Assembly: GCA_028279425.1 (NCBI GenBank)
Contig: JANQNV010000016.1
Location: 1 to 42,624, forward strand
DNA from: Longimicrobiales bacterium
Lineage (GTDB): Bacteria; Gemmatimonadota; Gemmatimonadetes; Longimicrobiales; Gaopeijiaceae
Length of the DNA stretch: 42,624 nucleotides
Direction: 5' to 3'
This document shows, piece after piece, positions 26,137 to 33,490 of the stretch; within the stretch, counting starts at the first letter, position 1, and the number at the start of each line of letters is the position of its first letter. Under the pieces are notes generated by a model. That model saw only the letters and a list, made by a program, of their open reading frames with translations, ran no database searches and was not told where the DNA came from. A program made the translations under genes and the position numbers.

Positions 26137-26547
26137 ATGCTTCTTCGTCGCTACGGCTCACAGTACCACAGTGTCGAGATGAACTTCGACAGCAAGGCGC
26201 TCAACGAGATCGGCTTCCGGCGCGATCGCCAGCAGTCCTTCGATGTCTACACGTTTCCCGACACCTTCGAGCGTGTGTCGGAACACGACTTCGATGCCCA
26301 CGCCGAGGGCGAAGTACACGACGAGGTGGAGCAGGCGGTTCTCTCACGGCTCGAAGAACAGGTCGTCGACCTGATGGACTCGCTCGCCCACGATCAGGTG
26401 ATCGTGATCCAGAGCGAACAGGGGGCGTCGTATCCGAAGACGCGGCAGGCGACTCGGAAGGTGATCCGCGACGGCGAAAACCGGCTCCATTTCACCGTGC
26501 ACATCGAGCCGCCCCTTCACCTGGCCGTGTACCGCCGCACGTCATGA
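26137..26547 (+). CDS. Conserved-looking hypothetical protein, 136 residues
   Basis: Starts MLLRRYGSQYHSVEMNFDSKALNEIGF and is acidic, with a long predicted helix near 65-90 (EGEVHDEVEQAVLSRLEEQVVDLM) and a C-terminal strand-rich part ending PPLHLAVYRRTS. There is no signal peptide and no cysteines. I do not recognise a family. It starts 11 bases after the helicase stop, and its stop overlaps the threonine dehydratase start (ATGA), so it is very likely translated and co-transcribed with both. Confidence 0.6.
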   Translation: MLLRRYGSQYHSVEMNFDSKALNEIGFRRDRQQSFDVYTFPDTFERVSEHDFDAHAEGEVHDEVEQAVLSRLEEQVVDLMDSLAHDQVIVIQSEQGASYPKTRQATRKVIRDGENRLHFTVHIEPPLHLAVYRRTS

Positions 26548-27803
26548 GTTCGGCGCGGGACCGCGAGGCGTCGGCGGTCACGGATACGCTGCCGGTCTCG
26601 CTGGACGACGTCCGAGCGGCCCGCGAGCGCATCGCGTCGGACGTCGTACTGACGCCCTGCCCGCACACGATGGCGTTTGCCGACGTGACCGGCGCGAGGT
26701 TGCACCTGAAACTCGAGAACCTCCAGCGCACCGGTTCGTTCAAGGATCGCGGTTCACTCAACCGACTGTTGCACCTCGATGAGGAGGAGCGCCGCAGGGG
26801 GGTGGTGACCGCGAGCGCGGGCAACCATGCGCAGGCGGTGGCCTATCATGCGCGACGGTTGGGCGTTCCCTGTACGGTGGTCATGCCCGAGACGGCTCCT
26901 CTCATCAAGGTCGCCAACACCGAGGGATACGGCGCGCGGGTGATCCAGCTCGGCGATGTGCTCGACGACTCGGCGGTCGAGGCCTATCGGCTGGTCGACG
27001 ACGAGGGCTTCGTCATGATTCATCCGTTCGACGATCCGCGTGTGATTGCGGGGCAGGGCTCCATGGGCCTGGAGATCCTCGAGCAGGTGCCCGACGTCGA
27101 TGTCGTCATCGTGCCCGTGGGAGGGGGCGGGATGATCGCGGGGATCGCGCTCGCGGTCCGAAGCCTCGCTCCTCATGTGCGGATCGTGGGTGTCGAGGCC
27201 GACGCGGCCCCCTCGGCCCGAGCCTCGCGGGATGCCGGGGAGATCGTCAAGATCGCGAGCTCCCGCACCCTGGCCGACGGTATCGCGACCAAACGGATCG
27301 GCGACAACACCTTCCCCATCATCGAAGCTCTCGTCGACGATCTGGTGAGCGTCACCGAAGAGGAGATCGCGAGTGCGGTGCTTCAGCTGCTCGAGCGGCA
27401 GAAGAGCGTGGTCGAAGGGGGCGGAGCCGTGTCGTTGGCGGCGCTCGCGAAGGGCGCGGTCGAGCTGGGAGCCGACCAGACCGCGGTTCTGCTCGTCAGC
27501 GGGGGCAATATCGACGTCAACATGGTGTCGCGCATCATCGACCGCGGCCTCGTGGCCGACGGCCGACTCGCCCGCGTGCTGGTTCGCGTGCCCGATTTGC
27601 CCGGATCGCTGGCCGGGGTGACGCGCCTGGTCGCGTCGCTCGGCGCGAATGTGCTCGAGACGTCGCATCGACGGGGATTCGCCGATATCTCCGTCGGAGA
27701 CGTCGAGATTCTGTTCACCCTGGAGACGCGCGGTCGAGCCCACGTGGATGGAATCCTGGCCCGGCTCGACTCCGAGGCGATGCACGTCGAGGAGTATACC
27801 TAG
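26544..27803 (+). CDS. ilvA: Threonine ammonia-lyase (threonine dehydratase) with ACT domain
   Basis: Converts threonine to 2-oxobutyrate and ammonia. 419 residues. PLP-lysine K67 lies in TGSFKDRG, followed by TASAGNHAQAVAY and the phosphate-binding PVGGGGMIAG, and the serine/threonine dehydratase layout continues to about 340. A single ACT-like domain follows (RVLVRVPDLPGSLAGVTRLVA), as in the short, TdcB-like/IlvA1 forms, which may be allosterically controlled. Whether it serves isoleucine synthesis or threonine breakdown cannot be told here. It overlaps the upstream gene by four bases. Confidence 0.9.
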   Translation: MSSARDREASAVTDTLPVSLDDVRAARERIASDVVLTPCPHTMAFADVTGARLHLKLENLQRTGSFKDRGSLNRLLHLDEEERRRGVVTASAGNHAQAVAYHARRLGVPCTVVMPETAPLIKVANTEGYGARVIQLGDVLDDSAVEAYRLVDDEGFVMIHPFDDPRVIAGQGSMGLEILEQVPDVDVVIVPVGGGGMIAGIALAVRSLAPHVRIVGVEADAAPSARASRDAGEIVKIASSRTLADGIATKRIGDNTFPIIEALVDDLVSVTEEEIASAVLQLLERQKSVVEGGGAVSLAALAKGAVELGADQTAVLLVSGGNIDVNMVSRIIDRGLVADGRLARVLVRVPDLPGSLAGVTRLVASLGANVLETSHRRGFADISVGDVEILFTLETRGRAHVDGILARLDSEAMHVEEYT

Positions 27804-29703: not shown

Positions 29704-29757
29704 GCCGACGCGGGGCACCTCCCACGCGGCATGCATACCTCAACAGGGAGGTCGACG

Positions 29758-30543
29758 GTGAGCGGCTCGAACACGAGAGTAGATGGGGCCACACTGCAGG
29801 CAGCGATCCGCGAGGAGTACGATGTCGTGGCTCGGAAGCCCCACCGCGGGTTCCACTTTCACACCGGGCGGCCCCTGGCCGACCGCCTCGACTACGATGC
29901 GGGCTGGCTGGAGGGCATCCCGGAGACCGCGGTGGAGTCCTTCGCAGGCACCGGCTGCCCGTTCCGACTCGGACGGCTCCGGTCCGGCGAACGGGTGCTC
30001 GACCTGGGCTCCGGCGCCGGCCTGGACGCTCTCATCGCGGGTCGCATGGTCGGCCCGGAGGGACGCGTGGTCGGCGTCGACATGACCCCCGCGATGCTGG
30101 AGCGCGCCCGCCGCGCGAAGGGGGAGGCCGAGGTCGACAACGTCGAGTTCCGGGAGGGGCTGGCCGAAGCCATTCCCCTCCCCGACGAGTGGGCCGATGT
30201 CATCATCTCCAACGGCGTGTTCAACCTGTTCCCCGACAAACCCGCCGTGCTGGCCGAGATGGCTCGGGTGCTCGCCCCGGACGGTCGGCTCCAGATCGCC
30301 GACATCGTCGTCGGGCGCGCCGTGCCCGAAAACGCGAAGGAGCGCATCGACCTCTGGACCGGCTGAATCGCGGGAGCTCTGCTGGACCACGAGCTCCAGG
30401 CCACGGTCGTGGCCGCAGGATTCACCGACTTCGAGATCACCTGGCGGGCCGACGTCTTCGCGGGCGCGCCGCAAGCTTCGTCGGCGGCGGCGTTCGGAAC
30501 GCTGGGTGTCAACTTTCGGGCGCGGAAGGCCCCGGCCTACTGA
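29758..30543 (+). CDS. ArsM-like SAM-dependent methyltransferase with in-frame TGA, candidate selenoprotein
   Basis: Class I methyltransferase: RVLDLGSGAGLDALIAG (SAM site), VVGVDMTPAML, and IISNGVFNLFPDK. The frame meets TGA at 30364-30366 in DLWTG-TGA-IAGALL and then continues in family-like sequence (LQATVVAAGFTDFEITWRADVF, SSAAAFGTLGVNFRARK) to a TGA at 30541. In arsenite methyltransferases and relatives this position, LWGEC(I/L)GGAL, carries a conserved arsenic-binding Cys, so TGA would encode selenocysteine (about residue 203). A SECIS-like hairpin follows: GGAGCTC (30373-30379), 11-base loop with G at its second base, GAGCTCC (30391-30397). A second thiol is C67 in GTGCPF. The start is GTG 29758, six bases after AGGGAGG; ATG 29731 is an alternative. 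Otherwise it would be a nonsense-mutated gene. Confidence 0.8.
30367..30397 (+). promoter_or_regulatory. Candidate bacterial SECIS element
   Basis: Directly downstream of the in-frame TGA at 30364: six bases, then a perfect 7-bp stem (30373-30379 with 30391-30397) and an 11-base loop TGCTGGACCAC. Bacterial SECIS rules ask for a short stem and a G among the first two loop bases. The loop begins 16 bases from the U of UGA, at the short end of the accepted range. Confidence 0.6.
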
Positions 30544-32371: not shown

Positions 32372-33490
32372 ATGGCTTCATCCAACATGAGCCGATCCCA
32401 CGTTACCCGTCTCTGGTGCATCCTCCTGGCATTCGTCGTATCCGGCTGCACGGCCGATTCCGATACGCTGCCCACCACCGGACCGACGGAACCGACGAGC
32501 CCGCAGAACTGCACGATTCCGCAGTCGCTGATCTTCACCGCCGCGCCGGCCAAGGACTGGATCCCCGCCCTCACGAATCCGGAGTTCGTGCCCCCCGGCG
32601 ATGCCGCGCTTTCGTACCTGCGTGACTTCGATCGCGTGATCGGCATCGTGCTCGACGGTCAAGCGTACGCCATCCCCCTCAACATCATGTGGTGGCACGA
32701 GATCGTGAATCTCGACGTCGGTGGACACTCGCTGGCGATCACGCACTGCCCGCTCACCGGGTCGTCGCTGGTCTTCGACCGGGCGCCGCTGGATGGGGTC
32801 GAGTTCGGGGTGTCGGGGCTGCTCTATTTCAACAACCTGATCATGTACGACCGGTCGACGGGAGAGTCGCTCTGGCCACAGATGGCGCGGGGTGCGCGCT
32901 GCGGGGTCCAGAGCGGCACGGCCCTCCGCTCGGTGGCGTCGATCGAAATGCGTTGGGACCGGTGGCGACAGCTCTACCCGGCCACGGTGGTGGTCAGCGA
33001 GCGAACCGGGTTCCAGCGCGGATACGATCAGTACCCCTACGGCGACTATGCGGAGCCGCCCAACGAGGCGACGCTCTTCCCTCGAGGGCAGAACGACGAT
33101 CGTCTGCTTCCCAAGGAACTCGTGCTCGGAGTGCCCGACGGCGCCGACACGTGGGCCCTTCCGTTGTCTCGCCTCGAGACGCTCGGCTCGCGAGCGGCCG
33201 TCTACCCGTCGGAAGACTCCCCCGACCTCGTCGTGTTGTGGGATTCCTCGGCGGAGTCCGCCATGGCGTATCGCTCGCTCGACCCCTCTGGAGAGCGCCT
33301 GACGCTCCGCCTCGAGGGCGGTCGTGTCGTCGACGAAGAAACCGGCAGCACCTGGCAGATCGACGGACGGGCCACTTCCGGCCCACTGGTCGGGACCCAG
33401 CTCGAGCCGATCCCCGAGGCCTACCTCGCGTTCTGGTTCGCGTGGATCGACTTTCACCCCCAGACGCTATTGTGGGAGCCCCCACAGTGA
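32372..33490 (+). CDS. DUF3179 lipoprotein
   Basis: 372 residues. The signal peptide and lipobox (LLAFVVSGC) are followed by a DUF3179 domain: AYAIPLNIMWWHEIVNLDVGGHSLAITHCPLTGSSLVFDR, GVSGLLYFNNLIMYDRSTGESLWPQ, and LYPATVVVSERTGF. The family has selenocysteine-containing members at the CPLTG/CPLCG cysteine; here it is an ordinary TGC codon. Function is unestablished; a periplasmic redox or metal-binding role is plausible, because the operon also encodes a DsbA-like thioredoxin. ATG at 32387 is an alternative start. The 3' end overlaps the next gene (GTGA). Confidence 0.85.
   Translation: MASSNMSRSHVTRLWCILLAFVVSGCTADSDTLPTTGPTEPTSPQNCTIPQSLIFTAAPAKDWIPALTNPEFVPPGDAALSYLRDFDRVIGIVLDGQAYAIPLNIMWWHEIVNLDVGGHSLAITHCPLTGSSLVFDRAPLDGVEFGVSGLLYFNNLIMYDRSTGESLWPQMARGARCGVQSGTALRSVASIEMRWDRWRQLYPATVVVSERTGFQRGYDQYPYGDYAEPPNEATLFPRGQNDDRLLPKELVLGVPDGADTWALPLSRLETLGSRAAVYPSEDSPDLVVLWDSSAESAMAYRSLDPSGERLTLRLEGGRVVDEETGSTWQIDGRATSGPLVGTQLEPIPEAYLAFWFAWIDFHPQTLLWEPPQ

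Follow-up and report, generated by a model that had tools for sequence, protein, structure and literature searches.

We identified, within the window (the whole stretch of 42,624 nucleotides that was analysed), a gene that very probably encodes a selenoprotein belonging to the known group of selenocysteine (Sec)-containing, ArsM-like methyltransferases. The comparison with relatives indicates that its in-frame UGA behaves as a Sec codon, as the relatives carry a predicted SECIS element and the genome carries the genes of the Sec pathway. The earlier note on this DNA had proposed a selenoprotein from a reading frame broken by one TGA at 30364 and continuing to a normal stop, and the proposal is supported by the TGA/Cys column, the SECIS in relatives and the Sec genes. 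The frame opens with GTG and runs for 202 codons to the TGA, after which 58 more codons lead to the stop TGA at 30541-30543. Standard annotation would end the protein at residue 202. We propose that SelB, positioned on the hairpin downstream of the UGA, would bring Sec-tRNA to this codon, and that the ribosome would then continue to yield the complete protein. The features of the gene are collected in Table 1.

Table 1 Features of the gene and its surroundings, in positions of the window
Feature	Position	Strand	Remarks
Shine-Dalgarno-like agggagg, putative	29745..29751	+	5' of GTG 29758; read from the letters
Gene of the predicted Sec protein, SAM-dependent class I methyltransferase, ArsM/AS3MT superfamily	29758..30543	+	261 residues
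Motif FHFHTGR, residues 32-38	29851..29871	+	Single-chalcogen clade; not seen in canonical ArsM rows
Motif SNGV, residues 151-154	30208..30219	+	Gly153 at canonical Cys174 (SNCV)
Putative Sec codon TGA, residue 203	30364..30366	+	Position of CmArsM Cys224; phmmer alignment, 152-sequence comparison
SECIS-like hairpin, GGAGCUC + UG [CUGGAC] CA, bulged C, GAGCUCC	30373..30397	+	RNAfold, family comparison
Second hairpin, probable, GGCCAC-GGUC-GUGGCC	30399..30414	+	Common to the window and closest relatives; just 3' of the SECIS hairpin

The strongest evidence comes from codon 203 among the relatives. Homologues were taken from 97 genomes, the window's own included, from a search of genomic contigs (the best 80 of 145 loci), from 395 genomes of the window's phylum and from 400 genomes of the phylum of genome G419; at most 30 best matches were taken per genome search, and the set therefore leans toward close relatives. 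The 158 loci (L014-L123, L129-L176) all cover column 203, and 152 distinct sequences remain after dropping six identical neighbourhoods, among these the window's own copy (L014). Of these 152 sequences (151 relatives plus the window), 85 have TGA, 51 have TGC and 16 have TGT at this codon. An alignment of the family had been suggested earlier as a check for Cys in this column, and Cys is indeed the sole alternative residue, present in 67 of the 151 relatives, the remaining 84 having TGA. One relative flagged for TGA by the search tool (L024) has TGC here and was scored as Cys. Relatives with TGA share 42-72% identity with the window protein and span Chloroflexota, Acidobacteriota, Actinomycetota, Thermodesulfobacteriota, Myxococcota and Armatimonadota as well as the window's phylum; four of the genomes with TGA consist of one contig each (G003, G191, G226 and G346). 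Plasmid records gave 18 matches, all below 60% identity.

These observations decide against the reading of the TGA as a true stop, in which a pseudogene or a sequencing error would leave a product of 202 residues. The standard code does give a stop at this place, and the hairpin of the window taken alone is not decisive. However, TGA in 84 and Cys in 67 of the 151 distinct relatives make a sequencing error or pseudogene very unlikely, and the protein is conserved on both sides of the TGA. Together with the SECIS in relatives and the Sec genes in the genome, the conserved TGA/Cys column leads us to reject a sequencing slip or pseudogene, and a true stop is hardly credible. A second Sec of the UXPK-star type in the C-terminal extensions was also considered, for the 13 of the 60 best relatives with at least 70 codons past the Sec/Cys codon; it is rejected for these, as no case with a TGA coming next ends in U-x-P-K.

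By comparative analysis, the TGA relatives carry a hairpin of the bacterial SECIS type at a fixed place, with the consensus UGA-9 nt-GCUCUGC-UGGAR-GCAGAGC. At least six of the seven pairs form at this place in 79 of the 84 TGA relatives (79 of 85 when the window, one of six TGA forms below six pairs, is counted), whereas the same score is reached by none of the 17 single-thiol Cys forms and by only one of 50 canonical ArsMs. The hairpin is absent from L048, a Cys relative with 67% identity. Across the TGA forms, 557 of 595 pair cells are formed, compared to a mean of 375 (s.d. 7.7, maximum 396) in 500 synonymous shuffles. Pairs 15-29 (UA, CG, GC) and 18-26 (GC, CG, UA) covary, and two-sided changes occur in 35 cells, a number that none of the 500 shuffles reaches; counted by pairs instead of cells, the two-sided changes do not exceed those of the shuffles (2 against 2.3). 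Folding energy gives a modest signal, with a median z of -1.57 in the TGA forms, -0.67 in the single-thiol Cys forms and -0.28 in the canonical forms, and in 14 of the 85 TGA forms the energy is matched by at most two of 200 shuffles. Synonymous constraint was scored over 100 columns in the 29 closest TGA forms (identity of at least 60%), and the four most constrained codons were 207, 208, 209 and 211, all of which lie in the hairpin.

The window's own copy of this hairpin is unusual. A perfect 7-bp stem starting six bases past the TGA, with G second in the loop, had been reported for it and taken as a feature expected of a bacterial selenoprotein. The stem (GGAGCTC 30373-30379, GAGCTCC 30391-30397) and, in the open loop of 11 nt, the G at the second base stand as reported, but RNAfold adds the pairs U30380-A30389 and G30381-C30388 and bulges out C30390, which leaves a 6-nt loop with GG at positions 3-4. 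In the register of the family only four of the seven pairs form; residues 210-211 of the window are Asp-His, compared to Glu-Ala in most close relatives, and three outer pairs (GGA/UCC) replace the lost ones. The comparison indicates that the hairpin is the family hairpin moved outward, with the position of the loop UGG unchanged; it is related to the family SECIS as a drifted copy. The distance from the UGA to the loop is 15 nt and the G stands at loop position 3, narrowly outside the bSECIS limits of 16-37 and 1-2 given in the accessible text of PMC13188914.

The TGA, the aligned Cys and the hairpin had been argued to be unlikely together by chance. This is borne out by the comparison across relatives, which lies far beyond chance, but not by the window hairpin alone: an equally long perfect stem arises in 97 of 5000 synonymous reshufflings. 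Its folding energy is ordinary, as 54 of 200 synonymous shuffles are as low, and so are 10, 26 and 24 of 200 dinucleotide shuffles in three cuts. The shuffle frequencies and this energy rule out the window hairpin as stand-alone proof. We infer that the off-register hairpin would still work. Rfam gave no match in the window at gathering score, and one weak miRNA match nearby was taken as chance.

The second hairpin is probably conserved in the closest relatives, in which GCN-ACG-GTC-GTN-GCN folds with the loop GGUC. It was scored in 28 of 29 sequences, including the window and leaving out L058, which has a codon deletion. Two-sided changes occur in all five pairs, and 85% of the cells pair, a value as high being found in none of 500 shuffles. 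The GGTC loop is present in 19 of the 28 sequences, whereas 2000 synonymous shuffles give 2.6 on average and never more than 8. We grade this hairpin only as probable because partners slid by -3 columns still pair in 80.7% of the cells and because the sequences share ancestry. By eye, it was not seen in the more distant TGA forms. The SECIS of E. coli fdhF has a loop of the GGUC type, which we regard as a lead only.

The window comes from a metagenome-assembled genome (MAG) that is 89.8% complete and 5.8% contaminated. The search for selA, selB, selC (tRNA-Sec) and selD that the earlier note had called for found all four in this genome, with selA and selB cut by contig ends: selA is split into two parts that lie at the ends of different contigs, and selB is matched across 345 of 581 positions. 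Two tRNA-Sec scored over the cut-off, and ARAGORN assigned the anticodon TCA to both (C71:35240-35332, L002; C127:3211-3305, L003); the two in one MAG are either two copies or contamination. The selD gene (C324:30571-31497, L126) has one in-frame TGA, and SelD is therefore probably a selenoprotein itself. Among the 97 genomes, tRNA-Sec is present in all 14 TGA genomes from which the copy was fetched (own included) and in three of eight with single-thiol Cys forms (one weak, at 50 bits). Adding five unfetched TGA-flagged genomes gives 17 of 19, with no tRNA-Sec found in G046 and G086. In 27 further genomes, tRNA-Sec occurs in 19 of 22 with TGA (one weak, 52 bits), none being found in the other three, and in three of five with Cys (one weak, 54 bits). 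These counts stand against a background in which tRNA-Sec is frequent regardless (63 of the 97 genomes).

The contig fits the genus, since, of five genomes from the same genus, three encode a protein with 78-80% identity to the one at 26544-27800; the identity is 68% in another, and G003 has only a distant paralogue. The same-genus genomes G003 and G005 carry members of a more distant Sec clade (L027 and L029, with PKLWASUIGGALLEGE), and no close relative of the window gene is listed in the genus in the 97-genome search; together these give a hint of lateral transfer of the gene. The own genome holds no other match to the window protein with E up to 1e-20 and thus no canonical ArsM was seen in it, the genome being incomplete.

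The product is, by its predicted structure, a class I SAM methyltransferase whose fold is nearest to that of ArsM. Pfam methyltransferase domains match the protein, with Methyltransf_31 at the top (E 8.8e-31), and the nearest solved structures by sequence are ArsMs, CrArsM and CmArsM, with human AS3MT among the closest. An AlphaFold2 model built from 57 rows has a mean pLDDT of 94.9, and in a Foldseek search against the PDB its best 13 chains are all ArsM or AS3MT. The TGA had been placed at a conserved metal-binding Cys, and the phmmer alignment confirms this placement: the sequence DLWTG-U-IAGALL pairs its U with the Cys of LLGECLAGAL in CrArsM (5evj) and of LYGECLGGAL in CmArsM (4kw7).

The other arsenic ligands are missing. 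In CmArsM, arsenite is held by the conserved Cys72, Cys174 and Cys224, according to the accessible text of PMC5552862 and PMC7248198. The window protein has Thr65, Gly153 and Sec203 at these three columns, and the canonical Cys is absent from each. No Cys occurs at column 153 in any of the 85 TGA forms, or at column 65 in the 84 of them that cover it (L066 does not). Cys174 is kept in 50 of the 152 sequences, all with Cys at 203, and 48 of these also keep Cys72; 17 of the 152 lack both equivalents and have Cys at 203. With the equivalents of Cys72 and Cys174 missing, the predicted selenol would be the last of the three known arsenic ligands. The window has a Cys67 two residues past column 65, but no other covered single-chalcogen row has Cys at column 67, and it is thus not a conserved substitute ligand. 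The earlier description of the protein as ArsM-like therefore stands for the fold and the superfamily, but the name ArsM is too narrow.

The reading of the protein as an ordinary arsenite methyltransferase, with Sec simply standing in for Cys224 in a three-ligand site, agrees with the closest solved structures and with a match to the NCBIfam arsenite methyltransferase model (NF008823/PRK11873), although the match is below the cut-off (224 against 263 bits). The replacement of two ligands by Thr65 and Gly153, the lack of Cys at both places in the TGA forms, a Cys67 that is not conserved and the lack of an ars gene among the nine neighbouring ORFs scanned in the window all speak against it, and we consider it quite improbable. 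Instead, we favour a one-chalcogen site. Its clade is marked by the first two motifs of Table 1: in 57 rows, F34 and G37 of FHFHTGR are invariant and H33 and R38 are kept in at least 90%, and N152 and G153 of SNGV are invariant. We built a tree from 102 rows (74 of the 85 Sec forms, 16 of the 17 single-thiol Cys forms and 12 of the 50 canonical forms), leaving out short-match rows and most canonical rows. The tree, whose bootstrap is not fully settled, separates the single-chalcogen from the canonical rows with support of 100/98. The exception is the Sec form L103, whose branch is long and whose place among the canonical rows is unsure. The Cys forms need six changes on this tree, five of which are forced by well-supported branches.

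Sec-containing ArsM has already been catalogued, and the window gene is a new stand-alone member. In the accessible part of a 2026 review (PMC13188914, Table 1), 'Arsenite methyltransferase, NF008823, UxxG, 1 Sec' is given as experimentally verified with reference to Fomenko 2007; the fusions with AhpD, DUF2284 and UXPK-star stand lower in the table with another source cited. An arsenite methyltransferase selenoprotein is also listed in PMC9312934 and arsM selenoproteins are mentioned in PMC2398784, as far as the accessible portions of both go. Compared through its model and the review entry only, NF008823/PRK11873 resembles the window protein in superfamily, in having one Sec, in the motif (U-I-A-G fits UxxG) and in having no fused domain. 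The top NCBIfam models are ArsM_AhpD_UU, PRK11873, ArsM_DUF2284_UU and MTase_UXPK_star, every score being below its cut-off. ArsM_AhpD_UU (NF041537) is collinear over window residues 6-229 and ArsM_DUF2284_UU (NF041536) over residues 6-239, but the window protein lacks the C-terminal AhpD of the former (243 of 510 bits) and the C-terminal DUF2284 of the latter (216 of 575 bits). The methyltransferase/UXPK-star double selenoprotein (NF047649) is collinear over residues 4-255, but its second Sec near the C-terminus is absent from the window protein (205 of 460 bits). The available text of the review gives the motif UxxG for all three. Compared to CmArsM (4kw7), CrArsM (5evj) and human AS3MT (8xt7), the window protein has a similar predicted fold, with Sec203 in the place of CmArsM Cys224, but is shorter, lacks the equivalents of Cys72 and Cys174 and carries FHFHTGR. 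That Sec occurs only where both of the other arsenic-binding cysteines are missing looks new, and the literature searched, with partial coverage, links Sec in ArsM neither to the loss of other cysteines nor to TusA/DsrE.

Canonical ArsM holds As(III) with three chalcogens, of which Sec203 is the sole one remaining. We propose that it probably acts as a selenolate in binding a soft substrate, perhaps aided by His33 and His35 of FHFHTGR. It would act as a soft ligand or nucleophile beside the SAM methyl, which would be handed to the substrate bound there. The candidate substrates are arsenite, another metalloid, or sulfur/selenium species. We give arsenite or another trivalent metalloid about an even chance. 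As no TGA form has the other two cysteines and ArsR-type neighbours are fewer, arsenite is only a candidate. TtArsM of Thermus thermophilus shows that arsenite is possible with one chalcogen, since in the available text of PMC8649762 it methylates arsenite with a single Cys, two His being the proposed substitutes for the missing ligands; it differs in having no Sec and in its Cys77, which is described in the N-terminal domain and is probably at another position.

Possible, if unlikely, is a selenoprotein acting on sulfur or selenium species, e.g. persulfide, sulfide or selenide delivered by carriers of the TusA/DsrE type, and not an arsenite methyltransferase. The lack of Cys at the Cys72 and Cys174 columns in every TGA form would suit such a substrate, and the gene neighbourhoods point the same way in part. 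ArsR-type HTH proteins account for 3 of 89 neighbour ORFs at 29 single-chalcogen loci, compared to 18 of 100 canonical neighbour ORFs (100 of 139 listed, all picked by a simple score without gene calling). The canonical neighbours also include SBF (4), LMWPc (4) and ArsP (2), which are absent among the 25 commonest single-chalcogen neighbour families in a listing that mostly omits families matched by one ORF. Of 40 single-chalcogen loci, 12 have a DsrE, TusA or OsmC match fused or within about 4 kb (nine of the 35 with Sec and three of the five with Cys), compared to none of 40 canonical loci, a count biased by seeds that came from the single-chalcogen group. Pfam confirmed such neighbours at L046, L048, L059, L064 and L071. 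At three loci (L048:4001-5032, L059:4001-5050, L020:1501-2568) a TusA-like domain continues the reading frame of the methyltransferase; it scores over the Pfam cut-off in L059 and L020 and just below it in L048, and the methyltransferase has Sec in one case and Cys in two. Against the sulfur/selenium substrate stand this bias, the activity of TtArsM on arsenite, the equal numbers of rhodanese neighbours (3 and 3) and the window locus itself, which has no DsrE, TusA or OsmC neighbour. Ars neighbours, common for canonical ArsM, are not required.

The one-chalcogen site that we favour raises a testable question, because Sec is tied to a site that lacks the other arsenic ligands: does one selenolate do the work of three ArsM thiolates, or has the substrate changed? 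The natural Sec/Cys pairs left by the six changes on the tree form a set for studying why selenium is kept. Speculative and doubtful as a whole is the wider picture of a widespread ArsM-like clade, mostly selenoproteins, that would use a single selenolate and the His motif to methylate sulfur/selenium species fed by TusA/DsrE, so that the arsenite name would be wrong, and in which the GGUC hairpin of the closest relatives would take part in Sec insertion.

The nine window ORFs scanned matched PALP, DPBB, MacB-like, DUF3179, Phenol_MetA_deg and thioredoxin-like families, three being without a family. The DUF3179 protein (32372-33487, + strand) is in the Cys form, HCPLTG, and DUF3179 is among the families for which the accessible text of PMC13188914 gives Sec members (UxxC/T). 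Lying 5' of the Cys forms L018, L019, L021, L022 and L025 are recurrent same-strand ORFs, which by eye resemble a sigma factor and a zinc-finger anti-sigma factor.
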